Shown here: piece by piece, positions 28,902 through 46,941 of the stretch
How the letters are laid out: the number at the start of each line of letters is the position of its first letter
Position numbering within the stretch: position 1 is the stretch's first letter
NCBI GenBank assembly: GCA_018222835.1
Contig: JAAEZN010000002.1
Location: 1-64,000, forward strand
DNA: 64,000 nucleotides
Direction of reading: 5' to 3'
Source of the DNA: Algicola sp.
GTDB lineage: Bacteria; Bacteroidota; Bacteroidia; Flavobacteriales; Flavobacteriaceae
Made by a program: the position numbers and the translations under genes
The notes under the pieces: model-generated
Database searches by the model: none
Seen by the model: only the letters and a program-made list of their open reading frames with translations
Told to the model about the DNA's origin: nothing

Positions 28902-28991
28902 GCATGTTACAATCTGTCAAATGCAGTGTTACATCTTATAAAGGTTTACCAAAGTCCTTTATCAATACCCTTTTTTTGACTCAACAATTGC
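28902..28991 (+). promoter_or_regulatory. 90-bp TGTTAC element, copy 1 (upstream of susC)
   Basis: ATGTTACAA, then 14 bp, then TGTTACATCTTATAA, then TTTACC, ending in CAATTGC. It aligns without gaps over 90 bp with a minus-strand copy upstream of the M61 gene (46636-46725), about three quarters identical, and with the spacing of a third copy near 42679. The two TGTTAC motifs are 22 bp apart, two helical turns, as expected for a dimeric or AraC-type activator. Confidence 0.6.
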
Positions 28992-28994
28992 AAA

Positions 28995-29118
28995 AAGGGC
29001 TGGGCGGGGAATAAGTCTTCAATCATTTACGAACAACAAATATAAAACCATTAAGCTTTGTTCTCATGAATTGATTTTTTGAATTAGCTATCTAAGATGA
29101 TGTCTCAGGCCCACCCTT
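28995..29118 (+). repeat. 124-bp stem-bounded element, copy 1 (leader of susC)
   Basis: The ends AAGGGCTGGGC (28995-29005) and GCCCACCCTT (29109-29118) pair over ten bases with one bulge. Inside is a conserved block (29058-29087) containing TTGTTCTCAT and ATTGATTTTTTGAATTAG. A second copy lies at 42765-42887. It may be the transcribed 5' leader of susC, or a small non-autonomous mobile element. Confidence 0.6.
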
Positions 29119-29162
29119 CTCAATTGAACTAATTCAAATTAATGTTAACAAAAACTAGATTT

Positions 29163-32100
29163 ATGAAATTCAAAATTCGATGCTATGTGGCCATCACGGT
29201 ATTTTTCTTATGCCTAGGGTTACGAGCACAGGAAAAAACAGTGTCAGGAGAAGTGACTGATGCTTCAAATCAGCCCCTGCCAGGGGTTTCTGTAGTTGTT
29301 GTAGGGACAACAACAGGAACACAAACAGATTTTGACGGTAACTACACTATCGCGGTAAGTTTGGGTGATGTGTTGCGTTTTAGTTATCTAGGGCAAAAGA
29401 CAGTCGAAATGACGGTGGGGGCTTCAAACACAATTAATGTGCAGATGGAAGAGGATGCCCAAGCACTCGAAGAAGTCATCGTTACCGCATATGGTACCAG
29501 TACCAAGGAAGCTTTTACTGGTTCCGCTAGTGTAGTAGGTGCCAAAGAACTTTCCATTAGAAACGTAACTTCTCCGGTAGCGGCCATCGAAGGTCGCGCG
29601 ACTGGGGTACAGTTTACCTCTGCACAAGGACCAGGAACTTCTCCGGGGATTGTAATCCGTGGTGTGGGAACCTTGAACGGTGATACCGATCCTTTGTACA
29701 TTGTGGACGGGGTGCAGTTCGAAGGTGAACTGAACACCATCAACCAGGAGGATATCGAATCATTCACTATCCTTAAAGATGCCGCCTCAACATCCCTGTA
29801 TGGTTCCCGTGCGGCAAACGGGGTGGTGATCATCACGACCAAAAGCGGTAAAAAAGGGGGGGTTCAGGTAAACGCCTCCATGCAATACGGATTAGTGAAC
29901 ACTTCCATTCCTTTTTATCCAGAACTTTCCCCTGGCCAGTATTATGAGACCATGTGGGAGGCTTTGAGAAATTCCAGTGCCGGAGGTGGCGATCCTGCTT
30001 TTGCTTCTGCGAACATATACAATGCCTTGGGCTATAACCCGTTCAATGTGCCCAATGATCAAATTGTCGGAACGGACGGACAATTGAATCCCAATGCCAG
30101 TGTGATATATAGTAGCCTTGATTGGTATGACTTTCTTGCTAGAACTGGCGTACGCCAAAACTATAACGTAAACGTTTCTGGGGGAGGTGACGATCATAAG
30201 GTATTCTTCTCCGCTTCCTATCTGGATGAGGAAAGTTATGTGGTCACTTCAGGTTTTGACCGATTGACCACACGATTGAATGCAGAGTTCGACGTGAACG
30301 ACAAGTTGACCATTGGGGGTAGTGCCAATTTGGCAATTACCGAAGCTATGGCACCAAGTTCAGCAGGTACCGGAAGTATTGTGAATCCATTTGGTTTTGC
30401 CAAAAATATTGGTTCTGTTTATCCGGTATATGTCAACGATCTTGAGGGTAACATTGTAAGGGATGTCAATGGAGGTCCCGTGTTTGATAGTGGTGAAGGC
30501 TTTCCAGAATATAACATCGGTTCCAGACCCATCAGCCAGGGACGTCATGCGCTCCAGGAGCTTTTGCTGAACGATATGCGGGATAGGGACAATACCTATG
30601 GTTTCCGTTTCTTTGCCGAGCAAGAGATCTTAGATGGGCTGAGCCTGCGGTTGAACTATGGTAGGGATATTAATGAAGGGTTGGCGAAACGGTATGAAAA
30701 TGCCGTAATCGGGGATGCACAGCCCGATGGTCGATATAGGGAAGTACGCAGCAGAAGACAGGTGGAGAACTTCAACCAGATCATTACATATGTGAAGAGC
30801 TTCGGTGATCACAATCTGGACATAACAGCGGGTCATGAAAGTTTTGACAGGACATTTTCATCCAATAATGGAATGTCCATTTTACAGGCCGCTAGTGGAA
30901 TCTATGAGTTCGATAATTTCTCCAGTATTGTTTCGCTTGGAGGATCCACCACGCGTAAAAGTATTGAAGGCTATTTCTCTAGGGTTAACTATAACTACAA
31001 GAACAAGTACTATATCAGCGGTTCTGTGCGACGTGATGGTTCCTCAGTATTCGACGCCGATACCCGTTGGGGTACGTTCTACTCAGTAGGTGGTTCTTGG
31101 AGAATTGACCAAGAAAACTTCTTGCAGGATTCCAATGTAATCAATCAATTAAAATTAAGGGCTTCTTATGGAGAGGTAGGTAACGATGATCTATTGGATT
31201 TCTTCCTTTCGCAGGCTAGATTTTCGATTACCGCCAATGCAGGGGATCCAGCTATCATTTACACCGATATAGGTAACCCCAACTTACAATGGGAAACTAT
31301 CGAAAACTTTGATGTAGCCTTGGAGTTCACCTTGTTCAATAACTTTTTGGACGGTTCCGTGGAGTACTATAAGAGAAATTCCTCTGAGCTTCTTTATAAT
31401 CTACCAATCGCACCAAGTAATGGTCTGAACGAAGTTCCCGTGAACGTAGGGGATATGTTCAACTCCGGTTGGGAAATAGCATTGACGGCCAATTTATTCA
31501 ATAAATCGGATTTTAGATGGAACGTAACCTTGCAGGCCTCGACCTTCAAGAACGAAATCACCAGCTTGCCTTCTCCATTTGTGGAAGATGAACAACGATG
31601 GGATGTGGGACGTTCAAGGTTTGATTTCTACTTATTGCGAACCGCTGGGGTTGATCCAGAAACGGGGGACCAGTTGTTCCTTCAGTATGAATTGGACGAC
31701 AACGGAAACAGTGTTCCCGTGTTGGATGCCAACGGTGACATCGCCACGACTAGCGACTGGCAGGATACGGAGCGTGCCTACACAGGTGACAGCTCCATCC
31801 CCGACCTATTGGGATCTATTGCCAACAGCATCAGCTATAAAGGATTCTCATTTGATTTCTTGATCAACTACGGTATCGGCGGTAGCGTGTTGGACAATGG
31901 ATACGCTGCCATGATGCACAGTGGAAACTATGGTCGCTCCTTGCACCCTGATATTTTGAGGGCATGGAGACAACCTGGTGACATCACCGATGTTCCAAGA
32001 ATGGAAAACGGTAACCCTAACTTGGTGAGAAGACAATCCGAACGTTTCCTGACGGATGCATCGTTCTGGGCACTGCGCAACGTGAACTTCGGCTACACCT

Positions 32101-32285
32101 TCGACAGCAAGATCGCCAACCAACTTGGTCTTGACCAATTGAGAGTTTCCCTTACCGGTGAAAACCTATACACCCAGAGCGAGCGAAAAGGACTCAACCC
32201 ACAGTTCAACCTAGCAGGTACAGGGGAAGGCAATGATTTTAATCCTGCACGAATTATTTCATTGGGATTGAACGTAACTTTTTAA
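29163..32285 (+). CDS. SusC/RagA-family TonB-linked outer-membrane receptor
   Basis: A 1040-residue outer-membrane transporter from ATG 29163 (an in-frame ATG at 29142 adds 7 residues before the signal peptide). After the signal peptide (ending LGLRAQ) comes a carboxypeptidase-like regulatory domain (VSGEVTDASNQPLPGVSVVV), a TonB-box-like LEEVIVTAYG, the plug with the SusC signature (LYIVDGVQF, KDAASTSLYGSRAANGVVIITT) and a barrel ending in LGLNVTF. With the SusD partner it imports oligomers across the outer membrane. Neighbouring genes are peptidases rather than glycosidases, so peptides are a likelier substrate than glycans. Confidence 0.95.
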   Translation: MKFKIRCYVAITVFFLCLGLRAQEKTVSGEVTDASNQPLPGVSVVVVGTTTGTQTDFDGNYTIAVSLGDVLRFSYLGQKTVEMTVGASNTINVQMEEDAQALEEVIVTAYGTSTKEAFTGSASVVGAKELSIRNVTSPVAAIEGRATGVQFTSAQGPGTSPGIVIRGVGTLNGDTDPLYIVDGVQFEGELNTINQEDIESFTILKDAASTSLYGSRAANGVVIITTKSGKKGGVQVNASMQYGLVNTSIPFYPELSPGQYYETMWEALRNSSAGGGDPAFASANIYNALGYNPFNVPNDQIVGTDGQLNPNASVIYSSLDWYDFLARTGVRQNYNVNVSGGGDDHKVFFSASYLDEESYVVTSGFDRLTTRLNAEFDVNDKLTIGGSANLAITEAMAPSSAGTGSIVNPFGFAKNIGSVYPVYVNDLEGNIVRDVNGGPVFDSGEGFPEYNIGSRPISQGRHALQELLLNDMRDRDNTYGFRFFAEQEILDGLSLRLNYGRDINEGLAKRYENAVIGDAQPDGRYREVRSRRQVENFNQIITYVKSFGDHNLDITAGHESFDRTFSSNNGMSILQAASGIYEFDNFSSIVSLGGSTTRKSIEGYFSRVNYNYKNKYYISGSVRRDGSSVFDADTRWGTFYSVGGSWRIDQENFLQDSNVINQLKLRASYGEVGNDDLLDFFLSQARFSITANAGDPAIIYTDIGNPNLQWETIENFDVALEFTLFNNFLDGSVEYYKRNSSELLYNLPIAPSNGLNEVPVNVGDMFNSGWEIALTANLFNKSDFRWNVTLQASTFKNEITSLPSPFVEDEQRWDVGRSRFDFYLLRTAGVDPETGDQLFLQYELDDNGNSVPVLDANGDIATTSDWQDTERAYTGDSSIPDLLGSIANSISYKGFSFDFLINYGIGGSVLDNGYAAMMHSGNYGRSLHPDILRAWRQPGDITDVPRMENGNPNLVRRQSERFLTDASFWALRNVNFGYTFDSKIANQLGLDQLRVSLTGENLYTQSERKGLNPQFNLAGTGEGNDFNPARIISLGLNVTF

Positions 32286-32294
32286 AAAATTCAA

Positions 32295-33962
32295 ATGATG
32301 TTAAGAAAAATAAATATACTGTTACTGGCCTTCCTAGGGATCGCCATAACTTCATGCGACGACGACTTTTTGGAAACAACGCCCACGGATGCCATTTCTG
32401 CCTCCGATGCGTTGGCCAATGAGGACAACATGCAGCTGATATTGAACGGGCTGCACCGTGGACTGTTCTCACAATCACAGGCCATATTCCCTGGGGGTGA
32501 TGATTCAAGGGCGAACAATCACTATTGGGTGCCACTGGGTGATAATCTTACAGGTGGGTTGATACATTCTGCCAATGCCAATAACTTGGGTTGGAGAACG
32601 GAGATGCAGTGGAACTCCCATACGGATCAGACCTCATTTACCTGCGAGTTGTTGTGGTACCACAGGTACAACATCATCTTGGGGGCCAACCTATTGATTA
32701 ACAGGGGTACCGACGGTACTTTGGTGGAGTCACCACAATTGAACGAAATTTTGGGACAGGCCTACACCTATCGGGCCTACGCCTATCTTTCTTTGGTGCA
32801 ACATTACGCTAAAGGCTACTTGATCGGTAATCCGGCCAGTGACCCAGGTGTACCATTGTTATTTTCTTCCGAGTCTCCCTTTACCAGTGAAGCAAGATCT
32901 ACTGTTCAGGAAATTTATAACCAGATTGAGTCCGATATTGCTACTGCAATAGAACATTTCGAGAACGGAACGGGAAGACCTAGTGGAGGTGCGGAGACCA
33001 AATCACAACTGAATATCGATGTTGCTTATGGTCTTTTGGCTCGTACGGCATTATCCAAGGGTGACTGGCAAACAGCTGCGGATGCTGCAGTAATGGCACG
33101 TCAAAACTATCCGATAATGGGCGAAGAGGATTGGAAGTCAGGTTTTAACTCCAATAATCTTTCCGAGGTAATTTGGGGAAGCAATGTAATCACAGCTGAG
33201 ACCACTTATTTTAGATCGTATTTTTACCTAACAACAAATACTTTCAACGGTGCCCAGATCAGAAATAATCCAAAAATAGCCGATAGAAGATTGGTAGATG
33301 CCATTCCGACTACGGACTATAGAAAAGATGTATTCTTGCCCGATGCCCCGAATACCAATAGTTCTGCGGCAAACAATCAGGGAGGACTTGATCCGAATAC
33401 TGGCTTGCCTAGGGATCCCAATTATGCCAATAATTTGGGAGAGTACAATGCCAGAAGAGCGGAAATCAATGCCATCTATGGTATTAACAATGCTTTTAAT
33501 CAACACCCGTACATGCACTTTAAGTTAAAGAATGCCAATCCAGGTTCTACAGACCCCGATGATGTGATTTATATGCGTTCTTCCGAAATGTATCTTATAG
33601 AGGCAGAGGCCAAGACTATGATGAACGATATTTCTGGTGCCCAAGACGCATTGAGACCATTGGGAGAGGAACGTGATAGTGCATATGACGTTACCGTTTA
33701 CAATACCCAAGAGGCTATGATGGAACACATCAAGTTCCAAAGAAGGCTGGAATTGTGGGGTGAAGGTTTCGGTTATACAGATCATATACGATGGGATGAA
33801 GGAATCGATCATGCGGCTGATGGAGGCTCTGGAGCTTCAGCTGTTTTATATCAAGAGGCATTTCAAGTGGAACGCCCATCGTTGAATGATGATTGGATTT
33901 TTAAAATTCCACAAGCCGAGTTGGATGCTAACCCCAACTTATCACCTGCAGATCAAAATTGA
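32295..33962 (+). CDS. SusD/RagB-family surface lipoprotein
   Basis: The 555-residue protein has a lipobox ITSC (Cys21) followed by DDDF, the acidic signal for surface exposure in Bacteroidota. The N terminus (FLETTPTDAISASDALANED) and C terminus (RRLELWGEGFGYTDHIRWDEG, WIFKIPQAELDANP) are typical of SusD, and the TPR-like helices around YTYRAYAYLSLVQHYAKGY form its scaffold. It starts 9 bp after susC and forms the lid and binding subunit of the importer. A perfect-palindrome terminator follows, so the transcript probably ends here. Confidence 0.95.
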   Translation: MMLRKINILLLAFLGIAITSCDDDFLETTPTDAISASDALANEDNMQLILNGLHRGLFSQSQAIFPGGDDSRANNHYWVPLGDNLTGGLIHSANANNLGWRTEMQWNSHTDQTSFTCELLWYHRYNIILGANLLINRGTDGTLVESPQLNEILGQAYTYRAYAYLSLVQHYAKGYLIGNPASDPGVPLLFSSESPFTSEARSTVQEIYNQIESDIATAIEHFENGTGRPSGGAETKSQLNIDVAYGLLARTALSKGDWQTAADAAVMARQNYPIMGEEDWKSGFNSNNLSEVIWGSNVITAETTYFRSYFYLTTNTFNGAQIRNNPKIADRRLVDAIPTTDYRKDVFLPDAPNTNSSAANNQGGLDPNTGLPRDPNYANNLGEYNARRAEINAIYGINNAFNQHPYMHFKLKNANPGSTDPDDVIYMRSSEMYLIEAEAKTMMNDISGAQDALRPLGEERDSAYDVTVYNTQEAMMEHIKFQRRLELWGEGFGYTDHIRWDEGIDHAADGGSGASAVLYQEAFQVERPSLNDDWIFKIPQAELDANPNLSPADQN

Positions 33963-34034
33963 TGATCCTTTATACAACATTGGTTTTATAGTTAGTGTTG
34001 TAAAAAACTGATTCGAGTGTTTAATTTGTTTAGA

Positions 34035-34064
34035 AGCCCTTCATCCTAGGATGAAGGGCTTTTT
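34035..34064 (+). terminator. Intrinsic terminator after susD
   Basis: A 26-bp perfect palindrome (34035-34060, arm AGCCCTTCATCCT) followed by TTTT. It separates the SusC/SusD transcript from the following DUF5916 gene. Confidence 0.85.
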
Positions 34065-34184
34065 ATATGGGTATTCAAACCCTGTGCCATATCAATTACT
34101 ATTGTTGGGTTTAAATATCGATCCTATTTGCTTATTTCCATAAGCTATGGAACTGGATTGTTTTGCGTTTCATGCCAGTGGAAC

Positions 34185-34210
34185 TAAAAATGGGAAACCG
34201 TTCCATTTTT
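34185..34210 (+). other. AT-rich hairpin
   Basis: AAAAATGG pairs with CCATTTTT around a short loop, with a T-run at its 3' side. It could be a second, weaker terminator or part of the promoter region of the DUF5916 gene. Confidence 0.35.
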
Positions 34211-34219
34211 AATGCTCAG

Positions 34220-34250
34220 TGTTAATTATCGTTAAATCAAGTTCTGATTT
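34220..34250 (+). promoter_or_regulatory. Phased GTTAA element, copy C (upstream of DUF5916 gene)
   Basis: GTT half-sites begin at 34221, 34231 and 34241 (GTTAATTATC, GTTAAATCAA, GTTCTGATTT), spaced 10 and 10 bp. It matches copies A and B and lies 125 bp upstream of the start at 34375. Confidence 0.5.
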
Positions 34251-34374
34251 CGGTATTTACGGAAATCAGGACGACTCCAGATGGATTTCGAGATAGGTTT
34301 GTTCAAAACAATGGACAGATAGTGGCTTCTATGAACAAGGTAGGGATTGGACAGCTAATCTATTAGGAGATAAT

Positions 34375-36585
34375 ATGTGCAAATTAAGAGTATATCAATG
34401 CTTCATTTGGTTCAACCTTTTGTGTTGCGTGCAATGGGTATATGCCTTTCAGCAGGATACCAGAGTGGCATTCCGATATCCTATTACAGAAAAACATACT
34501 ACCATCAAGGTAGATGGGATAGTCGATAAGGGAGAATGGGAAGACTATGTCCTCATCGATACCTTGTACAATCACGACCCCAGTGATCAAGGTTTGGCCG
34601 CTTTCAGAACAGAAATCAAATTGACTTTTGATGCGAATCAACTATATGTATTTGCCAAACTATATGACGATGGGGAAAGAGTGATTCAGTCGCTCCAAAG
34701 GGATTCGGACAATTCACAATGGGAGAGTGATTCTTTCACTGTAGTTATAGACCCCATCAACAAGAAGCAGGGCGGAATCTTGGTTGGTGTTAACGCCGGA
34801 GGTGCGAGAGTTGATGGGAGTCTTTTGGTGGAGCCGGGAAGAACGACGTATTCGGACACGTGGGACACCCAATGGAAATCGGCTACCAAGCAGTACGATA
34901 CCCATTGGGTTTTGGAAATTGCTATTCCATTTAATAGCCTACGTTATAATAACGACAACTTGGAATGGGGAATCAATTTTATTCGAGGACATAAAGCCCA
35001 AAATTTTTATTATACATGGACACCATTTCCCTTGAATTTTAATGGTGTTGATGTTAACTATATGGGTACACTGGTATGGCCGCAAGTCCCAGAGGCCAAT
35101 AATCCCATTGCGTTTCTCAAACCCTACCTTACGGCAAGTGCCATTAAGGATAACGACCTTGATCTTGGTGAAACAGTATCTATGGATGGTGGATTGGATA
35201 TCAAGGTGCCTATAACCAAATCCTTGAATGCCGATGTGGCCCTAAATCCAGATTTCTCCAATGCAGATGTTGATCAAGAGATTACCAATATTACCCGTTT
35301 TGATATTTCATTACCGGAACAGCGGGAATTTTTTCTTGAGAACGCAGATATATTTTCCAATTTCGGCAGCTATTCCATCTTTCCTTTCTTTTCAAGAAGG
35401 ATAGGCTTGGAAACTCCTATTTTGTATGGAGCCCGCATTACAGGAAACCTTTCCGGGAACCTTCGTGTTGGGGTGATGAACGTCCAGACCCAAAAGGATG
35501 TGGATATAAGTGCACAAAACTATACTGTGGCTGCTTTTAATCATAAAGTGATGAGCAGGTCCCAGCTGAGGGGGCTATTTGTAAACAGACAAGAGATAGG
35601 TGTTGATTCCATCAATGATTATGCAAGGAACTTTGGCGGGGAGTTTACCTTCATCTCAAAGAAAGGAAATTTAAACACTACCATAAAATATCACGGTTCC
35701 GTGACCGATTCAAAGGAAAAAGGTTCCTATTTCGGAATTAATGGCGGGTATTCCACCAGGCGTTTTAGGGCCGGGTGGACATTGGATGTTTTGGGCAAAG
35801 ATTATCGAGCCGATGTAGGTTTTACGCCACGTCTGTTTAATTACGATGCAGAGGCAGAATCGGTCGTAAGAAAGGGGTATATTTTTGTGAATCCCTTTGT
35901 GACCTACAAGTTTTTTTCAAAGGAGGAACAGAGTAAGCTTATTTTTCAAGGGTTCAGATTTTATCATAATATGTTTTTCAATCCAGATGGAAGTCTTAAT
36001 GAGCGGGATAACAATCTGGCCTATGATATCTTCTTTAAAAATACCTCTAGATTCACCCTAATGGGCACTAATAATGAGGTGAATTTGAACGTTCCGACCA
36101 ACTTTTTGGGAACAGAGTTCGATAATCTTCCCGTTGCCAATTATGGTTTTTGGAACGGTATTGTTAGCTATAGTTCCGATGTGAGGAGGAAATTTACCCA
36201 TACAACCTCCTTGACCTATGGTGAATTCTATAACGGTAATCGATTTTCTTCCAGTCTTTCAGGATCTATTCGATTTAGCTATTGGGCCAATATGGGGGTA
36301 ACCTACGATTACAATAATATATCCTTACCGGAAAATTATGGAAATCGCAATTTCCATTTGTTGCGCATTCGGGCCGCCATCAGTTTTACCAATAATCTAT
36401 TTTTCAACAATGTTGTACAGTATAATACCCAAAGCCAAAATTTCAGCGTGTTCTCCAAGTTACAATGGCGATATGCACCGCTTTCGGATGCTTTCCTCAT
36501 ATACAATCAAAACAATGACACCAACGGATTTGACCTAACAAACAGGTCGATCATTCTAAAATTGACATATCGTTTTGCTGTATAA
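34375..36585 (+). CDS. DUF5916 outer-membrane protein with N-terminal CBM9-like domain
   Basis: A 736-residue protein. Residues about 1-26 form a signal peptide (LLCCVQWVYAFQ). Residues about 30-230 form a CBM9-like jelly roll (IKVDGIVDKGEWEDY, WESDSFTVVIDP, LEIAIPFNSLRY, WGINFIRG). The rest, from NADVALNPDFSNADVDQ and SLPEQREFFLENADIF onward, is the DUF5916 barrel ending with an aromatic-rich C terminus. The family is widespread in Bacteroidota next to SusCD and peptidase genes; its role is not established. It is followed 15 bp later by a trypsin-like protease gene, indicating one transcript. Confidence 0.88.
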   Translation: MCKLRVYQCFIWFNLLCCVQWVYAFQQDTRVAFRYPITEKHTTIKVDGIVDKGEWEDYVLIDTLYNHDPSDQGLAAFRTEIKLTFDANQLYVFAKLYDDGERVIQSLQRDSDNSQWESDSFTVVIDPINKKQGGILVGVNAGGARVDGSLLVEPGRTTYSDTWDTQWKSATKQYDTHWVLEIAIPFNSLRYNNDNLEWGINFIRGHKAQNFYYTWTPFPLNFNGVDVNYMGTLVWPQVPEANNPIAFLKPYLTASAIKDNDLDLGETVSMDGGLDIKVPITKSLNADVALNPDFSNADVDQEITNITRFDISLPEQREFFLENADIFSNFGSYSIFPFFSRRIGLETPILYGARITGNLSGNLRVGVMNVQTQKDVDISAQNYTVAAFNHKVMSRSQLRGLFVNRQEIGVDSINDYARNFGGEFTFISKKGNLNTTIKYHGSVTDSKEKGSYFGINGGYSTRRFRAGWTLDVLGKDYRADVGFTPRLFNYDAEAESVVRKGYIFVNPFVTYKFFSKEEQSKLIFQGFRFYHNMFFNPDGSLNERDNNLAYDIFFKNTSRFTLMGTNNEVNLNVPTNFLGTEFDNLPVANYGFWNGIVSYSSDVRRKFTHTTSLTYGEFYNGNRFSSSLSGSIRFSYWANMGVTYDYNNISLPENYGNRNFHLLRIRAAISFTNNLFFNNVVQYNTQSQNFSVFSKLQWRYAPLSDAFLIYNQNNDTNGFDLTNRSIILKLTYRFAV

Positions 36586-36600
36586 TAAAACCCAATTCGA

Positions 36601-37323
36601 ATGAGAAGAACAATCGTATTGTTTTTACTATGCCTACTGGTGTCCAAATGGTCTGTGGCCCAACTTGATTCAGTATTGGTGTGTGATGTGAAATTTAAGA
36701 CATCAAAGTTTGACAATGGCCATGCCGGAAGTGGTTTTTTGGTAAAATACGATAAAAAGGTATATGCCTGTACCGCAAAGCATGTACTGTTTTTTGCCAA
36801 AACCGAAAATATGAAAACCATAAGCTTTGGAAACGATTTAAAGTCTTGGTCCTTTATTTCAAAGAAGAACCCCGATATTAAGTTGCTAGCCGGGAAACTT
36901 ATCAATGAGAATAAAGAGGAGCCGCTTGCCATGCCCCCCAACGGAGATTGGTTGGTCTTTGAGACCATGGGGGAAATTCCGGACGGACTCCATCTTTTTG
37001 ATTTGAGAACCAACTCATTGGAAATCGGGGAGCGTCTTTACTTCATGGGGTATCCGTATGGAAGCAACGTCCCGATAAAAGTGGAGGGAAGATTCAAAGG
37101 ATATACAGAAACCGGAAATTTAAGTTTAGATGTACCGAAAGGCACCTATAATGGCTGCAGCGGAGGGCCTGTTTTTGATCGGCAAGGCCTGCTGGTTGGC
37201 CTGGTCTCCATGGGTTATATTGACCAAACAACCGATTCCATGGTATTTGAGCCTGCATCGGTCGAATATTTTAAAAAAACAATAGTAAAAATAACAATCC
37301 ATGAAAATCAAACGGAATCATAG
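36601..37323 (+). CDS. Trypsin-like serine protease, secreted
   Basis: A 240-residue protein with signal peptide ending WSVAQ (residue 21). A chymotrypsin-fold catalytic triad is visible: His61 in TAKHV, Asp116 in GDWLVFE and Ser187 in NGCSGGPVF. No PDZ domain is present, unlike DegP-type proteases. It lies in the same transcript as the DUF5916 gene. It probably acts in the periplasm or at the surface and fits the peptidase theme of the region; the substrate is unknown. Confidence 0.82.
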   Translation: MRRTIVLFLLCLLVSKWSVAQLDSVLVCDVKFKTSKFDNGHAGSGFLVKYDKKVYACTAKHVLFFAKTENMKTISFGNDLKSWSFISKKNPDIKLLAGKLINENKEEPLAMPPNGDWLVFETMGEIPDGLHLFDLRTNSLEIGERLYFMGYPYGSNVPIKVEGRFKGYTETGNLSLDVPKGTYNGCSGGPVFDRQGLLVGLVSMGYIDQTTDSMVFEPASVEYFKKTIVKITIHENQTES

Positions 37324-37475
37324 CTTATGGAAGAGGACAAGTTTAATCTTGTTTACCGTATTGATCAACGGAAGTCTTTTTGAACAAAAAACGGAATATT
37401 ATATACACTTGTGTATAGGTGCATAAGGAATACCTGTAATATTTGAACAATCGACAATCCCATTAAAAGATATAT

Positions 37476-38630: not shown

Positions 38631-38773
38631 TCTTTATCGTGCACATTAAAATAACTGAAGAAATATAACCAACTATATTTAACTTTAAATGTCCCAAAAG
38701 GACGTGAGCTGTTTAAGAAAGCGTTGGGTTGTTGTTTTCAAATGGGATAAAGCTCTGTCAATTAGCTTGTATA

Positions 38774-39904
38774 ATGGACTTGATTACAATCTTAGGTATT
38801 GGTTTTGGTTTTCTGGCTCTTTTTCTGGCCTTTTTTTTCCTGCTTCATAAGCGGTTTCAAAATGATGGCTATCTATATCTTTATGGATGCCTCATGATTT
38901 TGGGTTTTGAGTTGATGTACAAAGTGTTGATCCATAGTAGAATAATTCTTGATGTGCCATTGTTCTACATTCCAGGGCGTCTCCATAACCTGCTGGTGTA
39001 TCCTTTGTTGTTACTATTTGTGTTTTCTATTACGAGGAGTTCCAATTTTAAAACCAAGGTTTGGCATCGGATTGTTTTATACGGTTTTGGGCTATATGCA
39101 CTATATGTAAGTATTGTGGCCTTGAAAATTCCATCCCATACCAAATTGGAAATGCTCCATCTTTTCTATCAGGATAAAAGGCCGGGACCATATGACTATT
39201 GGAAAAATCCCATAAGTCTGCTTAAATCCACTTTGGTTCCTTTGTTTTTTTTAAGTGTTGTTGGTATTGAGTTTTTTAGGTTCCGAAAGAAATCTGAGGA
39301 TATGCCATCTGTTCGGTTATTGAACCTTTTGTCCTTGATTATTATAATATATTTTCTATTCAATCAGTTTTCCAATCCCATATATAAAGGGGTTCATAAA
39401 ATATCGGGTTATTCAATGGTGGAGTGGCCGGTGGATATTGGTTTTCTATCCTTGTTGGTTTTGCTGTTCTCTATCTTGGCTCTGATGGTCAACACTGGGA
39501 GTACCTTATTTCCATCGGCCAAGTATGCTCGGAGCTCGTTGTCAACTTCTTCATATCAAGATATTGTAGAGCGGGCAAAACGTATGGTCGAGGATGGCAT
39601 GTTATATAAAAAAGAAAGCCTTACATTATCGGAACTATCCATCATGATGGGCACCAACCCGAAGTACCTTTCACAATCCATAAATGCCAAACTCCAATGC
39701 AGCTTTGTAGATTTTGTAAATGGCTATAGGGTAGAGGAGGCAAAACGATTGATGCTGGACCGAACAAATAGATCATTCACACTTGAAGCTATCGGTAGTC
39801 TCGCAGGTTTCAAATCTAAATCTGTTTTTTTTAGAGCATTTAAAAAGGCAACCGGGATGACACCGAATCAATTCCTTACTTCACAAACCGGTGTCAATTC
39901 TTGA
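38774..39904 (+). CDS. Membrane-embedded AraC family regulator (copy 3 of 3)
   Basis: A 376-residue protein from ATG 38774 (a TTG at 38729 would add 15 residues). Residues 1-240 contain about seven hydrophobic segments (LITILGIGFGFLALFLAFFF onward), and residues 285-370 form the AraC domain (LTLSELSIMMGTNPKYLSQSIN, LEAIGSLAGFKSKSVFFRAF). It lies between two paralogous repeat-protein genes and may control them. A short GC-rich stem followed by TTTT (39911-39927) may end its transcript. Confidence 0.87.
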   Translation: MDLITILGIGFGFLALFLAFFFLLHKRFQNDGYLYLYGCLMILGFELMYKVLIHSRIILDVPLFYIPGRLHNLLVYPLLLLFVFSITRSSNFKTKVWHRIVLYGFGLYALYVSIVALKIPSHTKLEMLHLFYQDKRPGPYDYWKNPISLLKSTLVPLFFLSVVGIEFFRFRKKSEDMPSVRLLNLLSLIIIIYFLFNQFSNPIYKGVHKISGYSMVEWPVDIGFLSLLVLLFSILALMVNTGSTLFPSAKYARSSLSTSSYQDIVERAKRMVEDGMLYKKESLTLSELSIMMGTNPKYLSQSINAKLQCSFVDFVNGYRVEEAKRLMLDRTNRSFTLEAIGSLAGFKSKSVFFRAFKKATGMTPNQFLTSQTGVNS

Positions 39905-39910
39905 ATTGGG

Positions 39911-39927
39911 CCCTGATTCAGGGTTTT
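39911..39927 (+). terminator. Weak intrinsic terminator
   Basis: CCCTG (39911-39915) pairs with CAGGG (39919-39923), followed by TTTT. The stem is only five base pairs, so termination is expected to be partial. Confidence 0.4.
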
Positions 39928-39989
39928 AGTAAAGGATAGCTGTTATTTTGTTTTGATTTTTGTGTGCTCAGAAACAAAAGTAGAGTCAC

Positions 39990-41243
39990 ATGAAAAGAAT
40001 TTTTTTATTGATAGGGGTGTCCTTGATGCTTTCTTGTACTACCAAGAAAACGACAGAAACATCCATGATTGCCCCGACTGTTTATTGCTATTCCACAGTA
40101 GCATTTGTTGAAACGCCATTGACCTATATAAAGGGAAGTATTCCGTTGACCAAGGAAGAAGCATTGGAACGCAACCATTATCGCTTTACCTACGATCAAT
40201 GGCATCGATTGGTCTCTGTTGCTTTCTATAATGGATTTACACCAAGAAACCCCAACCATACCGCCAATCTGTTCACCTTGGCACACCGTATGGAATTTAC
40301 TTATACGTCGAGTACAGAAAAAATTTCCTTCTACAACACTAAAGGACAACAGATCAATGTGCTGGGGGATTGTAAGGAATTTATTTATTCCTTGGACGAC
40401 AAGGGCTTTAGGAGTTCCTTGGAGTTTCTTAATGATGAGGGGCAAAAAGTGGAAAATGATTGGGGAATATTTAAATATCAATGGACCTATTTGGCAGATG
40501 GAAGCATAATTGAAGACCGGTTCAATAAAGTTGGAGAATCCGTTGCTATTCGACCAGGGTTCGAGTTTTACAGGTTGAGACTTAATTTTAACACCTTGGG
40601 GCATATTGCCCTGATGCAAAATATTGATCAGTATGGAAACCTAATAGAGAACAGCTCCGGAGCGTCGCAGGATAGGATTACGACCAACTCCCATGGAAAT
40701 TTTTTGCAATGGGAGGTTTTGGACAATAATTCGGCTTTGGAGAAGGGAAATGGGCCAAATGTAGCCATTGGTATCCAAAAGTTTAACGAATATGGTTATG
40801 AGGTGGCATTGGAGCATCGGGATGAAAACAACGCCCCCATATATAACAACTATGGAATTTGTAAGAGTGAGACCAAATTTGACAGCTTTGGCAACATGAT
40901 CGAAAGAAGGTTTTTTGATGAGGACAGCAAGCCATCCTGTCATAAGTTGGCAGGTTATCATAAACTGAAGATCCAGTGGGACCCGTCGGGCAATCGAAGG
41001 AATATGCTATCGTATTACGATGTGAACGGCACTCCAATTGAACACCAGGCACGAGGGTATCATAAAGTGAGCTATAGCTACAATAGGGATAATCTTCTTC
41101 AGCAAATCAGTTATTTGGACACAGAGGGGAGTCTCGTAAACCGTAAGGACAATGGTACGGCGTATATCAAATATGAGTATGATGAAAAGGGACAAAGGTC
41201 GGAAGCTTCTTTGTTTGATGTAGAGGGCAATCTAATACGTTAA
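39990..41243 (+). CDS. YD-like beta-repeat lipoprotein (paralogue 2)
   Basis: A 417-residue lipoprotein (MLSC, Cys16). It shares with the protein at 37476 the opening IKGSIPLTKEEALERNHY and a run of units such as DGSIIEDRFNKVGE, LIALMQNIDQYGN-like and GNFLQWEVLDN, and has about two extra repeats at its C terminus (YYDVNGTPIEHQARGYHK, YLDTEGSLVN). The lipid anchor replaces the plain signal peptide of the paralogue. It is followed 4 bp later by a serine hydrolase gene, so both are one transcript. No known function. Confidence 0.7.
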   Translation: MKRIFLLIGVSLMLSCTTKKTTETSMIAPTVYCYSTVAFVETPLTYIKGSIPLTKEEALERNHYRFTYDQWHRLVSVAFYNGFTPRNPNHTANLFTLAHRMEFTYTSSTEKISFYNTKGQQINVLGDCKEFIYSLDDKGFRSSLEFLNDEGQKVENDWGIFKYQWTYLADGSIIEDRFNKVGESVAIRPGFEFYRLRLNFNTLGHIALMQNIDQYGNLIENSSGASQDRITTNSHGNFLQWEVLDNNSALEKGNGPNVAIGIQKFNEYGYEVALEHRDENNAPIYNNYGICKSETKFDSFGNMIERRFFDEDSKPSCHKLAGYHKLKIQWDPSGNRRNMLSYYDVNGTPIEHQARGYHKVSYSYNRDNLLQQISYLDTEGSLVNRKDNGTAYIKYEYDEKGQRSEASLFDVEGNLIR

Positions 41244-41247
41244 AGAG

Positions 41248-42324
41248 ATGAAACAAGTACAATGGTTTTTTGTTATCGCCCTATTCTGCGGTCCTGTAAT
41301 GGGACAGGATATACTTAAAAAAGAACTGAATGACATTTTGGAAGCCTATGCGTCGAAGAATCAATTTAGCGGAACTGTATTGGTGTCCAAAAAAGGCAAA
41401 GTGCTGTATAAAAATGCTTTTGGTATGGCCGATTGGGAAAATAGGGTGCCCAATAATCTGGATACGAAGTATTTAATAGGCTCTGCAACTAAATCATTTA
41501 CGGCTATAGCTGTGATGAAAGCCAGAGAGGATGGATTATTGGAGTTGCATGAGCCACTTTCTACATATATTCCTGAATTGAACAGAGAGCTTGGCCGATT
41601 GACACTGCATTTTTTAATGAAGAACTCATCGGGATTGCCCGTACATCTTAATCGAATCACCGAGTTGGAATATCGGGATATTTCAAGCCAGGAGCTTATT
41701 TCATTATATAATTCCGTTCCACTCTCCTTTGCACCGGGAACCAGATACCAATATTCTAATCTAAATTATCAATTAGCTGCGCTTGTATTGGAAAGGGTTG
41801 CCCATACATCATATAAGGACTATTTGGGCATGAATATTTTTAAACCTATTGGGATGAACAGCACGGGCGTGGAAAGAACCGATTTAAAATCAATGGATAA
41901 AGCATTGGGTCACGATTTGTTAGCAGGCAGGTTTGTAAGGTCCGAAGAAAACTACATGGGCTATGCCAAAGGGGGAGGTGATATGTATTCAAATGTCGAG
42001 GATATTTTTAAATGGGATGCTGCATTATATTCAAACCAATTGTTGAACGAAAACAGCAAACAGCTTATGTTCGATGGATCTCCGGATAAATTTGGAGGCT
42101 ACGGATATGGTTTCAAGATAAAGGCATATGAGCGGGGCAAGGAAAGGGAAAGTCTTGGCAAACTTGTCCGCCATGGAGGTTCCATGTATGGATATATCTG
42201 TAATATTCATCGTTATTTGGACGATCAGGTCTTGATTGTGGTTTTGGGGAACATAAGGCCCTATCCAACTATGGAGATTACGGTTGCAATTGAAGATGTG
42301 TTGAGGTCAAAAGGATTTTTTTAG
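41248..42324 (+). CDS. Serine hydrolase, class C beta-lactamase family
   Basis: A 358-residue secreted protein (signal peptide ending CGPVMGQ). The class C/AmpC-like motifs are present: SATK with the nucleophile Ser79 and Lys82, YSN in YQYSNLNY (about residue 168) and HGG in RHGGSMYG in place of KTG. Such proteins are mostly peptidases or esterases (D-aminopeptidase, DD-peptidase-like), not resistance beta-lactamases. It belongs to the transcript of the upstream repeat lipoprotein and adds another peptidase-like enzyme to the locus. Confidence 0.85.
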   Translation: MKQVQWFFVIALFCGPVMGQDILKKELNDILEAYASKNQFSGTVLVSKKGKVLYKNAFGMADWENRVPNNLDTKYLIGSATKSFTAIAVMKAREDGLLELHEPLSTYIPELNRELGRLTLHFLMKNSSGLPVHLNRITELEYRDISSQELISLYNSVPLSFAPGTRYQYSNLNYQLAALVLERVAHTSYKDYLGMNIFKPIGMNSTGVERTDLKSMDKALGHDLLAGRFVRSEENYMGYAKGGGDMYSNVEDIFKWDAALYSNQLLNENSKQLMFDGSPDKFGGYGYGFKIKAYERGKERESLGKLVRHGGSMYGYICNIHRYLDDQVLIVVLGNIRPYPTMEITVAIEDVLRSKGFF

Positions 42325-42678
42325 AATTGTAGCGAGTCCTGTTGGACTTCTTGACAATGCTAAAAAGTGAAAAATAAAGACCATGGGCCTTATTCATATG
42401 TCTCCAGATTACAAGAATACTATCAGAAAAATCGGGAGTTATTATAAATAACCTACATATTTCTCATATGTAACTACGGTGCGTTGTGTTACAATCAACA
42501 ATATCTTGATTGTTAGCCTGAGCAATAGCAAGTCGTTTCCAGTTAATATTGATTCTTCTAAAATTTTGCCATTGCTTCTCATTTTGATTTATCACACCTT
42601 GTCATAGGCTATAATTTGGGTGTTCGCGGCCTTTATCACCGTTGCCCTAAAGGGTTTGGACAGTACAGTTCGGGGATT

Positions 42679-42728
42679 ATGTTACAAAAGATAAATTATA
42701 ATGTTACGTATTATAACTGTTTACCGTT
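42679..42728 (+). promoter_or_regulatory. TGTTAC element, copy 3 (orphan)
   Basis: ATGTTACAA, 14 bp, TGTTACGTATTATAA, then TTTACC, with the same spacing as copies 1 and 2. Beyond the TTTACC motif the similarity to the others weakens. There is no downstream gene on this strand. Confidence 0.5.
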
Positions 42729-42764
42729 CTAGAGCTTAAATATCATTCTTTTGTGTAATAACAT

Positions 42765-42887
42765 AAGGGATGGGCGGGGACATACATCCTCTTTCATTAA
42801 GAGACATTTATTTTATCCATTAATTTTTTGTTCTCATTGATTGATTTTTTGAATTAGGCTATGGATGATGTCATCTAGCCCACCCTT
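42765..42887 (+). repeat. 124-bp stem-bounded element, copy 2 (orphan)
   Basis: The ends AAGGGATGGGC (42765-42775) and GCCCACCCTT (42878-42887) pair as in copy 1, with the bulged base changed. The block 42828-42857 is nearly identical to the core of copy 1 (TTGTTCTCAT, GATTGATTTTTTGAATTAG). The length is 123 bp against 124. Confidence 0.6.
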
Positions 42888-43065
42888 TTAAAAGCCTAAT
42901 TACAAAAGAATAGATTCTATTTGTGTATAAAATACCGTTCAATGCGGATTTTGAGAATATTGGTTAATGAAAAGGTATTGAATAGTATATGTATTGGAGC
43001 CAAAAGTAATTGTAAGGGCAAAGTAGGTCAAAGACAGAGCTTTGTTAAAATTGCGTTATTACCTT

Positions 43066-44757
43066 TTAATTTTGAGCTTCCTTGTTTATCAAATCCACTA
43101 CAAACTCAAGACATGGGTCATGACCTTGTTTCCATTCCATTGATGTGGGCTTTATGAAAACTTCTGGAGCAATCCAATTGCGCTCGTCGTAGGGAACAGG
43201 ACTTTGCCAAAATGATTTCGAGGCATAGGCTTTCAACCCTGAATGGGGTAAGTTGATTTCATTGTCATCGCCAACATGGCTTGGTCTTCCTCCACTTGGT
43301 TCGCCAATGAACATTGTCTCCGTAAATTGATCTAACTGGGTAGATAATAATATGGCTGCAGAAAATGTCATGTTACCTATTATAGTAAATAGTTTGCCTG
43401 GTTGATTGACTTTCTCGCATTTTACGATACTGTTTAAAAAATCCTTGTTCAATTTTCCACTTCCCCCAAGATTAAACCTTAAATCCAGCACTAAAGCCTT
43501 GACGTCATTATTATTTATAAATCTTAAAATATCCTCCCCAAATTCCTTAAATGATTTCTCGGTCTCGTTACCTATCTCATTTATTTGGCAATACACAATT
43601 TTGGAGTCTGATAAATAGGTGAACCAGAATTTTCTGTCGAGATTAGACAAAAACAAAGGGGGGTCAACTGTTTTATTCATTGTTGCCCATCCCTCATTTG
43701 TTTTTCTGGTCAAGAAGGTATCCGGTGAAAAGGGTAGGTGGACCATGGAGATTGTTGTTTCGTTCCCGTTTTCATCAAGGTAACCAATAACAGACTTGTT
43801 TACATCCGAAGCAAATTCAAATGCCATTAAAATTTCAGAAAAAGTAGCATATAGAAGACTAGATCTTCTTTTCATTATTTTATTCTCAGCTATAGCTACC
43901 GAGGAAACTTTTTCTAGGATCTTTTCAATGGGTATGCTATTGATCGACATAATTTTTTTTCCTAACAAAACCCCATATCGTGGCAATGTTTGTTTAACAA
44001 AAACCCCATCACTGAACTCGTAAAGTTCAATAGGTATTTGATGGAAACGGTTTTTACCGGAATATGGAGGCATAATGTAGGAATGCCCAATACCAATTTG
44101 ATTCATTATTCCCATCAACTCCACAATTATTTCATAGTCATTTAATTCGGATATTTTGGGAGTCAATTTTTCGAAACTCCTGTCCCATTCCAATTTTGGA
44201 TAATAATCATGCAACCTGTAGTGCGTCAGTTCAACCTGATTTTTAAGAAATCGTATATCTTCACTCCAACCTTTTGTTCTTGTATTGGTTTTGGTGGTAT
44301 CTGGTATTACAAGTTTCTTAAATGGCTCTAAATTTCTAAGGTTATCCAAACCTTTATCGGATAGTAGTAACGTTTCCCTATTGTTCAATCCATGGGCGAT
44401 AGCTGACTGTAGATTAATTATTGCTTTAGCGGTTTCTCCCAATGATGAATAATTGATGGCGATGTTATAGTGAGAGTTGGCTAACTGATATCCACATTCA
44501 ATTGCCTTCTTCAATGATTGAATTGAGTTATTATAATTTTGACGATTCTTTTCAATTAATCCCAACCTATACCAGTAATGCCCATTGTAAGGATTTTTGT
44601 TGGTGATTTTTGCATATAGGTCAAAAGCTTTCTCCCAATTATTGTCATTATAAAATTGATCTGCTTGTAATAAAACGTTGGATGATTGGGCTTTGAGGTC
44701 AAAACTGGCCCATATGATCAGGGCAATTATTTTAACCCAATTGTGATAATTTTTCAT
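43066..44757 (-). CDS. TPR-S41 family peptidase, secreted
   Basis: A 563-residue protein with signal peptide ending DLKAQ (about 24). Residues about 27-155 hold three to four tetratricopeptide repeats (AFDLYAKITNKNPYNGHYWYRLGLI and similar). Residues about 175-555 form an S41 peptidase domain: VLDLRFNLGGSG, the nucleophile in NMTFSAAILLS and the loop IGEPSGGRPSHVGD. The serine is retained, unlike in the related protein at 25709. It is a single gene on the minus strand with a 25-bp palindrome about 120 bp upstream. Confidence 0.85.
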   Translation of the reverse strand: MKNYHNWVKIIALIIWASFDLKAQSSNVLLQADQFYNDNNWEKAFDLYAKITNKNPYNGHYWYRLGLIEKNRQNYNNSIQSLKKAIECGYQLANSHYNIAINYSSLGETAKAIINLQSAIAHGLNNRETLLLSDKGLDNLRNLEPFKKLVIPDTTKTNTRTKGWSEDIRFLKNQVELTHYRLHDYYPKLEWDRSFEKLTPKISELNDYEIIVELMGIMNQIGIGHSYIMPPYSGKNRFHQIPIELYEFSDGVFVKQTLPRYGVLLGKKIMSINSIPIEKILEKVSSVAIAENKIMKRRSSLLYATFSEILMAFEFASDVNKSVIGYLDENGNETTISMVHLPFSPDTFLTRKTNEGWATMNKTVDPPLFLSNLDRKFWFTYLSDSKIVYCQINEIGNETEKSFKEFGEDILRFINNNDVKALVLDLRFNLGGSGKLNKDFLNSIVKCEKVNQPGKLFTIIGNMTFSAAILLSTQLDQFTETMFIGEPSGGRPSHVGDDNEINLPHSGLKAYASKSFWQSPVPYDERNWIAPEVFIKPTSMEWKQGHDPCLEFVVDLINKEAQN

Positions 44758-44875
44758 TTTTTGAATAAAGTATTTTAGTTGTTCCCTGTGTGAAGCCGAA
44801 TATAGGGGTATAGGAACCCCATTAAGAATTGGTTACTTCCATTCTCATCTAGGGAGATACTATCTTATAACGAGA

Positions 44876-44900
44876 TTATAAATCGGATTCCGATTTATAA
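44876..44900. promoter_or_regulatory. 25-bp near-perfect palindrome upstream of the TPR-S41 gene
   Basis: Arms TTATAAATCGGA (44876-44887) and TCCGATTTATAA (44889-44900) around one central base. It lies 118 bp upstream of the start codon on the minus strand, with no T-run, so a dimeric operator is more likely than a terminator. Confidence 0.5.
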
Positions 44901-45017
44901 ATAAAAGGATGGTTTCTAGGATACATTACATGTAAACTATCGATAAGCGAATTAATGTTTATTTGTAACCTTTAACCATCCTCTTGGTGTTAATGGCCAA
45001 AAAATATGTGGGTGGGG

Positions 45018-46520
45018 TTACTTTCCTAAAAACCCATATAAAATATCCTGTTCCAACTTGTTCAAGTTATTTTTCTTTTTTATCAGCAGTTTCCCATGTT
45101 CGATAGAGGCATTTAATCCGGCGGGATGCAAGTATGCTTCAATAGGGAATTTTATAGCCCCTTGTATATAGGTATCAAAAAACGAAGTCTGATCTTCTCC
45201 GCTCAAATTGGACAATCGTTGACATACTTCATCCAAATCATAATGCTCGTTTGTACCACCATACTCTTCATATAATGCTTTCATTAACATATCCAAGCTT
45301 TTGGTATTTTTCGTTGCATTGCGGATAATGATATCCTGAGCTATCCCTACGAACATACCTCCACTATATACCAAGCCCCAATGGTCATGCTTGGCTTCAC
45401 CATCGGACATGGATAATGTGCCTACTCCTTCATCATCAACATAACGTTTATAAAAGAAATCGGATAGAACATTCAAATAACTCTCATCGTTTAAAATACC
45501 AATATGATATAGTGCCTTGACCGTGTAATAATTTGTAACCCCTTCCTTGAACCATTCCAAATCATCGGAGTTTGGGGAGAAAGATTTGCCGTTCCAAAGA
45601 TGAAAGAACTCGTGCGCAAAAATGAACCTGGAAATTAGTTTAGAAAAGTCATCTCCATCTTTCTGAACCAAAACACTGATGTTGTTCCCTAGTGCTTCAC
45701 CATCGGTGGCATCTGCGGCGTTAACCACCACCACAGATCTTAAAGTTCCTTTTAAATTGGGCGGGTTTGGATTGCCCCCCATAAGATCAACATAGTAATT
45801 TAAAACACCATTGGCGATTTGCTTATACTCCTCCTCTTGTTCTATGGTTTCTTTTGTTCCCAATGCAAAAATCAATTCGAAATCCTTTCTTTTAATTTTG
45901 ATTTCCTTGTGGGTACCCAAGAACATAACAGATTGTAAAAGATCATTTATACCTTCGACCTTCTGCATATCTGATTCTTTTCCATCTATTTCCCAAGGTG
46001 TTGTTGCTATCCAGTTTTTGGGAAGATCAAATTTTACCGATATATCATTTCTTTGCGTCCCATTGATCATAAATAAGGTTCTACCGGTGTAAAAAACTCC
46101 ATGTTCCGTAGAATACGCAACCCCATCAATTCCGCCGCTCCACTCATAATCCGAGTGAGTAAGGTGAACATTATAGGTTACAGTTATTGGTGTGGGAGCA
46201 TCTATATCAATTTTCCACTTAGGACCTTTTAACTGCTCAACGGCAAGTTTGTTGTTTTGGTCATCGTATGCTCTAATATTATGCAAAAAATGCCCCCAGC
46301 TGTTATCGAATGCTCGGGCACTGCCATCCATATACAGAATATTATCCTGTGGTATAAACTTCATGGTTACTTGCGCCACATTAGGGTTTTTTTCTGTAAT
46401 GGTAATCCAATAATTGATTTGGTTTTGATCAATATCCAGCTCATTTGCATTAGAGCCAATACTAGAAAGAGCTATAGGAAATAGCCACAACATTGGTTTT
46501 TTAAATAATTTGAATAACAT
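45018..46520 (-). CDS. M61 family aminopeptidase (glycyl aminopeptidase-like), secreted
   Basis: A 500-residue protein from the ATG at 46520; an earlier TTG-type start at 46574 would place 18 polar residues before the signal peptide. The signal peptide ends near GSNANE. The first half is the beta-rich M61 domain, and the second is the thermolysin-like catalytic domain with HEFFHLWNGKSF (zinc histidines) and the third ligand in WFKEGVTNYY. The C-terminal PDZ domain of many M61 enzymes is absent. The upstream region carries copy 2 of the TGTTAC element, which links it to the SusC/SusD operon. Confidence 0.85.
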   Translation of the reverse strand: MLFKLFKKPMLWLFPIALSSIGSNANELDIDQNQINYWITITEKNPNVAQVTMKFIPQDNILYMDGSARAFDNSWGHFLHNIRAYDDQNNKLAVEQLKGPKWKIDIDAPTPITVTYNVHLTHSDYEWSGGIDGVAYSTEHGVFYTGRTLFMINGTQRNDISVKFDLPKNWIATTPWEIDGKESDMQKVEGINDLLQSVMFLGTHKEIKIKRKDFELIFALGTKETIEQEEEYKQIANGVLNYYVDLMGGNPNPPNLKGTLRSVVVVNAADATDGEALGNNISVLVQKDGDDFSKLISRFIFAHEFFHLWNGKSFSPNSDDLEWFKEGVTNYYTVKALYHIGILNDESYLNVLSDFFYKRYVDDEGVGTLSMSDGEAKHDHWGLVYSGGMFVGIAQDIIIRNATKNTKSLDMLMKALYEEYGGTNEHYDLDEVCQRLSNLSGEDQTSFFDTYIQGAIKFPIEAYLHPAGLNASIEHGKLLIKKKNNLNKLEQDILYGFLGK

Positions 46521-46635
46521 ACTTCGTTTTTTTGATGATGATGAATAAACTCTTGTGCAGATCCTCTGTATCAAAGTGTATTGATGACATGGAGGGGGAT
46601 GCGCACCAGTTTTTTTGATGAAACTTGCTGGGTAA

Positions 46636-46725
46636 GCAATTGTGGGATCAAAATAAACCTATTGGTAAAGTACTTCGGTAAATATTTATAAGATGTAACG
46701 GAAAATTCGACATATTGTAACATGC
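46636..46725 (-). promoter_or_regulatory. 90-bp TGTTAC element, copy 2 (upstream of M61 peptidase)
   Basis: Read on the minus strand: GCATGTTACAAT, then CGTTACATCTTATAAA, TTTACC, and at the end CACAATTGC. It aligns without gaps with copy 1 over 90 bp. Its near end is 116 bp upstream of the chosen start codon. Confidence 0.6.
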
Positions 46726-46927: not shown

Positions 46928-46941
46928 GGTGTATTGTTTAG

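Follow-up and report, generated by a model that had tools for sequence, protein, structure and literature searches.

In a 64,000-nucleotide (nt) stretch of DNA from Algicola sp. (Flavobacteriaceae; contig JAAEZN010000002.1, positions 1 to 64,000, hereafter the window), a susC importer gene is preceded by a structured RNA leader. This leader carries a putative antisense directed at the translation start of another such gene, the core susC, whose product begins MRTKLNG. Comparison across Flavobacteriaceae shows that the closing stem of this element and its antisense are conserved, and that the predicted pairing with the target is kept by compensatory change. We propose, as the probable explanation, that a TGTTAC operator/promoter drives the susCD genes, a gene for an M61 peptidase and a copy of the RNA that stands alone, and that leader and stand-alone antisense would block translation of the core susC, thus lowering the core importer. 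The leader-target pairing is well supported, and we infer transcription, direction and effect from sequence: that the RNA is made, with about the ends given below, acts in trans, represses the core SusC and is controlled by one of the AraC-type proteins encoded nearby.

The leader, its stem and its antisense core

Downstream of the TGTTAC element, the copy before susC and a second copy, which the first-pass annotation had taken for an empty orphan, share about 120 bp further at 75% identity (E 1.8e-12); the copy before the M61 gene is without this extension. The supposed orphan thus precedes a stand-alone element that resembles an antisense RNA. Two additional sites in the own genome are similar to the centre of the shared module. 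One lies in the same orientation upstream of another susC (contig C78, locus L005). The other, which is inverted, overlaps the start codon and 5' untranslated region (5'UTR) of a gene on contig C94 (L004) that begins MRTKLNGLLTLLLAF, and therefore the module reads as antisense to the point where translation of another susC begins. The contig end truncates this gene; the SusC/RagA and Plug models match its relative in G008, and its divergent neighbours are rpsL and rpsG. The computed duplex with the MRTKLNG start reaches -47.8 kcal/mol for the susC leader, -46.1 for the stand-alone copy and -44.0 for the C78 leader. Among 31 receptor starts of the own genome, namely the target and 30 of the 52 Plug-domain matches (with the best of all early ATGs taken for these 30), the MRTKLNG start is the best target.

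The RNA element is about 120-148 nt long and mostly located before a susC. The prediction of its closing stem used 40 sequences of the genus (alignment A2, 40 of 46 extracted leaders, with six near-duplicates omitted; L052, L075, L098 and L133 were excluded from stem extraction and L113 failed). Covariation was examined in a family-spanning alignment (A4) of 30 sequences, made of 26 family loci including the own one and four more genus leaders, with L257 (G139), L272 (G229) and L248 (G019) omitted. In it 89.4% of cells pair and 11/19 pairs have changed on both sides, in a structure derived from the same alignment. None of 500 shuffles reaches any of five covariation measures, and sliding the stem partners lowers pairing to 39-57%. 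Folded singly, the stand-alone window copy has a z score of -2.83, and other leaders range from -4.0 to -5.1. No Rfam family reaches its cut-off for the element in the window or in 11 loci that carry it; there are weak sub-threshold matches only, such as Phe_leader on L075 (30.1 bits vs 55).

Copies without a susC behind them are the own one (42762-42894), L076, L098, L133, L052 and L075, and terminator-like hairpins are present in L052, L075 and L133. In L052 (G057) and L075 (G052), the stand-alone antisense with its hairpin stands directly before a gene of 225 amino acids (aa), and in both of these species a gene of ~487 aa lies just upstream. L113 (G033), the most divergent genus leader, has its closing stem changed to GTAGAGTGGTA with TACCACTCTAC, fully compensated.

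Distribution and co-evolution in genus and family

The antisense query matches 59 of 60 same-genus genomes. The 93 loci sort into 41 targets, 51 antisense elements and one spurious core (L111), dropped before duplexes were computed. Most targets (37) are of the MRTKLNG type; the other four (L097, L101, L102, L105) belong to a second susC family beginning MRSK, whose start region also matches the antisense core and may be a second target. The rpsL gene is present in 15/18 genus target loci checked vs 5/29 other-genus loci, several of the latter short. Paired with the MRTKLNG target, the 51 elements have a median energy of -47.2 kcal/mol and z scores of -5.1 to -13.7 against shuffled targets, the own genome's target being substituted where a genome's own was not fetched (rows marked 'cons'). 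Pairing with their own downstream start has a median of -18.2 kcal/mol and is weaker than that with the target in 48/48 elements with a downstream frame, although three of these 48 rows (L003, L052, L075) are not susC.

Since the target is itself among the matches of the query that yielded these elements, a second search used only the stem's 5' arm. This pattern has 68 sites in 54/60 genomes, and its reversed form has none in the 60. Of these 68 sites, 30 were examined, and every one has the antisense in front of a susC (z -6.8 to -12.3); three are new relative to the first search. The stem pattern was derived from the earlier elements, so the second search is only partly independent. The exact stem pattern occurs in 75 stretches, where the named genomes are Flagellimonas, Allomuricauda, Muricauda and Croceivirga, with a few unclassified bins. 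Downstream genes match SusC/RagA (TIGR04056) in 53/53 leaders (30 genus and 23 other-genus), the proteins tested being fragments cut by locus ends. Synonymous variation is absent from codons 2-10 of the target across 37 genomes of the genus and present in many codons further on; as codons 14-17 are likewise invariant, the constancy of codons 2-10 gives weak support.

Beyond the genus, the leader covariance model R1 has matches in 67/249 family genomes, representing 66/235 sampled genera (E<=1e-3); many partial matches are targets, and therefore this is not a count of leaders. A class-wide family was considered and rejected, as R1 matched the own genome alone among 247 sampled class genomes at E<=1e-4 with strict filters, in a search of limited sensitivity, given that at least six non-matching genomes belong to the same family. 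Of 27 other-genus leader loci examined, 23 precede an open frame of >100 aa within 150 nt and four do not. Their targets begin MRTK, MKTKFSG or similar, and the antisense changes along with the target.

Pairing within genomes was compared with permuted combinations. Over 27 genera, the summed same-genome pairing is -1264.9 kcal/mol vs -1048.8 when permuted (standard deviation 26.9), with 0/20,000 permutations as good; here the targets of G145 (top match lacked a start), G268 (top match was the leader's own susC) and G083 (top match began MKLKLTW) had been swapped for another match after their N-termini were inspected, which could favour the antisense reading, and G229 was without a target. The own target ranks first in 10/27 genomes. 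In a fixed alignment of 26 genera (G139 missing; anchors shifted by gaps in at least G277, G136 and G145, uncorrected), 775/853 positions pair vs a permutation mean of 748 (standard deviation 4.6). None of 5,000 permutations reaches 775, and sliding leader and target by 1-3 positions leaves 33-52% pairing. Compensatory change is found at target position +5, where the partner of G is C or U and that of A is U (Fisher p 0.002 for the G-C association), at +13 (p 0.001), at +12 (p 0.004) and at the base preceding CTAATTC (p 0.0002).

The TGTTAC element and its neighbourhood

The first-pass annotation had described a 90-bp element with gapless similarity of about three quarters, half-sites 22 bp apart and a third copy with identical internal spacing. 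All three descriptions hold: in an own-genome search the copies before susC and M61 (Table 1) align without gaps over 90 bp at 79% identity (E 3.5e-15), the third copy keeps the spacing, and TGTTAC and (T/C)GTTAC start 22 bp apart in all three. Operators of the AraC family have direct half-sites about two helical turns apart, a feature with which the 22-bp spacing of the three window copies agrees. The motif TGTTAC-N17-GTTAC-RTM-TTATAA-NNN-TTTACC was built from these copies, which therefore match it at 0 mismatches, and was scanned across the 60 same-genus genomes with <=3 mismatches. Five matches resulted, confined to the three window copies and two in G052 (0 and 2 mismatches), where they stand before the orthologous susC and before a second 'orphan'; a reversed control motif gave 0 matches in the 60 genomes. 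A mobile repeat was considered and rejected, as other own-genome matches reach only E 0.1 or weaker and the placement of the copies relative to genes is kept in relatives.

Similarity of the M61 copy stops just past CAATTGC, at the leader start, and a TTTTG box lies shortly upstream of the CAATTG leader start in all three copies. By a general promoter rule we take this box to be a promoter feature, and the start site is likewise presumed. The 90-bp element is thus likely a shared operator/promoter of susCD, the M61 gene and the stand-alone RNA, and would best be read as operator, promoter and first transcript bases. The earlier proposal of an operator shared by importer and peptidase is supported in this respect, given that the motif is specific to these loci and kept in G052; as the whole explanation it is not supported, because two of the three copies run on into conserved structured RNA.

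Table 1. Features of the window that bear on the leader RNA and the TGTTAC element.
Feature	Position	Strand	Evidence
AraC-type regulator, candidate binder, directly upstream of susC	27557..28642	+	Domain match; motif link by co-occurrence only
Operator/promoter copy before susC	28902..28991	+	TGTTAC pair 28905-28932, TTTACC to 28950; own-genome similarity, motif scan; promoter role and start site presumed
Structured RNA leader, closing stem CAATTG to CAATTG	28985..29126	+	Model R1 match E 3.4e-16 (own sequence in model); stem covariation in homologs
Antisense core of susC leader	29045..29089	+	Complementary to 5'UTR and start codon of MRTKLNG susC, contig C94
susC behind leader (alternative start ATG 29163)	29142..32285	+	Pfam; NCBIfam TIGR04056
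susD	32295..33962	+	Domain match
AraC-type regulator, candidate binder	38774..39904	+	Domain match; motif link by co-occurrence only
Operator copy of stand-alone RNA (the former 'orphan')	42679-42728 (motif 42680..42725)	+	Motif scan
Stand-alone RNA copy, hairpin then TTTT, no susC behind	42762..42894	+	R1 match E 8.4e-11 (own sequence in model); fold z -2.83
Antisense core of stand-alone copy	42815..42857	+	As for the leader core: own-genome match, computed duplexes
M61-family peptidase gene	45018..46574	-	Domain match
Operator/promoter copy before M61, without RNA module	46636..46725	-	Own-genome similarity, motif scan

G052 is syntenic with the window: susC is 95%, susD 94%, AraC 27557 59-60%, AraC 38774 78% and M61 80% identical, its M61 gene has a degenerate motif upstream (TGTTAC, 17 bp, GTTAC, later TTTTACC), and AraC 20083 has no ortholog-level match in the 20 kb of G052 examined. 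G001 has the same susCD (89%) with the RNA leader; the 40 kb around it contain the complete motif nowhere and, at E<=1e-15, match neither AraC 27557 nor AraC 38774 nor the M61 gene, and one stray one-mismatch TGTTAC pair lies away from susC. Since G052 keeps AraC 27557 and 38774 and these 40 kb of G001 show neither of them nor the complete motif, this co-occurrence favours either of the two over 20083 as the candidate binder.

Most genus leaders are without TGTTAC yet retain the RNA module. Leaders of MKVKK...-type susC genes (L135, L158, L163 and others) have a GTACTT..CCC..GGG and CCGTTT.(A)AAGTACC motif, ~20-95 nt before CAATTG, in its place. As many genus leaders have this different upstream motif, a single RNA device may receive input from several regulators. 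Immediately upstream of the operator copy at M61, 46939-47000 on the minus strand is the 3' part of a transfer-messenger RNA gene (Rfam tmRNA, 54.2 bits vs cut-off 47), cut by the end of the segment searched.

Proposed mechanism, alternatives and known systems

Flavobacteria carry dozens of TonB-dependent importers, and to our knowledge it is largely unknown how they rank them. We propose that induction at the TGTTAC site would yield SusCD, M61 and two antisense sources simultaneously, the susC transcript starting with the folded leader. The ~45-nt antisense in leader and stand-alone RNA would then pair with the core susC mRNA (the gene beside rpsL in the genus) where its translation begins and block ribosome entry, so that one importer is induced and another is lowered. 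Because the match between antisense and start is kept across many genera, switching on one importer probably switches off another, and since the duplex would lie over the region where ribosomes enter, it most likely acts by repression. A partner protein, either Hfq or an RRM_1 (PF00076) protein, was considered and rejected, as neither was found in the own genome and the controls were positive (for RRM_1, a Bacteroides genome); a long duplex that forms without a chaperone is therefore plausible. It is an even prospect, in our judgement, that this holds as a family-wide circuit, in which one core SusC importer of Flavobacteriaceae is directly silenced through long antisense pairing with inducible-susC leaders and their stand-alone derivatives, without an Hfq or RRM chaperone, so that outer-membrane importers are swapped automatically. 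If true, a leader RNA that couples the induction of one importer to the silencing of another would be a direct mechanism for importer hierarchy in a major group of marine polymer degraders. It would then also constitute a new RNA family, one whose target is defined, and would extend the control of susC starts by antisense well beyond Bacteroides.

Several observations weigh against repression of the core susC by a leader antisense. Shared ancestry is not accounted for in the permutation and Fisher tests. The elements were collected with a query to which the target is also similar, and from elements collected in this way the stem pattern was derived. There is a recurrent mismatch at +7, and covariation at +17 is not significant (p 0.096; 26 genera). 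Four of 27 genomes (G129, G259, G266, G139) rank their own target 11th-18th, and the G207 leader pairs almost equally with its own start and the target. Several genus leaders, such as L005, are no longer complementary to the start codon itself, and the fold of the window leader by itself is only modestly better than that of shuffled sequences (z -1.75). Within the own genome, the best other receptor start reaches -33.6, -38.1 and -36.8 kcal/mol for the susC leader, stand-alone copy and C78 leader, involving two or more such starts; secondary targets besides the MRTKLNG susC are possible.

The same pairing could work in the reverse direction, with the core susC mRNA as regulator, refolding the leader as sensor and thereby controlling the downstream importer. 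The element does lie in the presumed 5'UTR of a regulated susC, in 30/30 genus and 23/27 other-genus loci, and covariation of the pairing is equally expected; we nevertheless consider this direction unlikely, because stand-alone copies exist without a susC behind them and the antisense covers exactly the target's translation start, the usual site of repression. Still less probable is a leader that acts only in cis, its fold controlling its own susC and its likeness to the core susC being a by-product of a CTAATTCAAA-like stretch common to susC 5'UTRs. The own 5'UTR has such a stretch that can pair with TTTGAATTAG, but we reject this explanation, as pairing with the own start is much weaker than with the target, the CCATTAA..TTTG..CAT half is complementary only to the target's coding start, and the compensatory changes there track the target.

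Two explanations at the DNA level seem very improbable. The earlier model of a promoter/operator cassette or repeat with incidental RNA-like features accounts for a conserved and specific TGTTAC element, but leaves aside the helix covariation and the majority of genus leaders, which keep the RNA module without it. An invertible susC promoter, or an inverted relic of a susC start left by DNA inversion of the phase-variation type, would agree with a core that is an inverted susC 5' end, and invertible susC loci occur in Bacteroides. Against this equally remote explanation, the orientation relative to the downstream susC is constant in the 30/30 genus and 23/23 other-genus loci that have one, the elements translated show an inverted frame that closes early, and the complementarity persists across many genera. 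The invertible promoter was rejected as both orientations are not seen among these loci, in a sample of one assembly per species where inversion within a culture is not visible.

The antisense mechanism preferred here has its closest likeness in the FopS small RNAs (sRNAs) of Bacteroides thetaiotaomicron, which are multicopy and base-pair with susC mRNA translation starts, with translation repression shown (PMC11697453). Repression is likely here by this likeness, as our elements are also multicopy and pair with a susC translation start, by computed duplexes and covariation. FopS sRNAs are ~65-70 nt long and have promoters of their own; 9 are intergenic, 4 are antisense and 1 derives from a 3'UTR. 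They are partners of the RRM protein RbpB and pair through a short 5' seed (PMC11697453). By contrast, the element described here usually forms the leader of another susC and measures about 130-140 nt, with a ~45-nt antisense within a closing stem; as it is no short independent sRNA and the own genome has no PF00076 match for an RRM partner, we do not file it as FopS. Antisense RNAs of Bacteroides polysaccharide utilization loci (PULs) are cis-encoded opposite their own PUL and antisense to the susC operon (PMC10994844). Our elements are likewise antisense to a susC operon, but the target lies on contig C94 and the elements on C113 and C78, and therefore they are not PUL cis-antisense RNAs of the kind described there. 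Use of an mRNA leader as a source of regulatory RNA has a general parallel in the 5'UTR-derived RNAs of E. coli (PMC7815308). Flavo-1 is also a structured RNA widespread in Flavobacteriaceae (PMC9723704); it is absent from the matches at E<=5 in the window segment searched and from those at E<=1 in 11 loci that carry the element. No description of antisense susC leaders in Flavobacteriaceae was found in the open-licence literature. Between susD and the next gene of the window, 33982-34066 on the plus strand weakly resembles the Bacteroides sRNA BTnc201 (MasB), at 27.6 bits vs a cut-off of 105, probably by chance.

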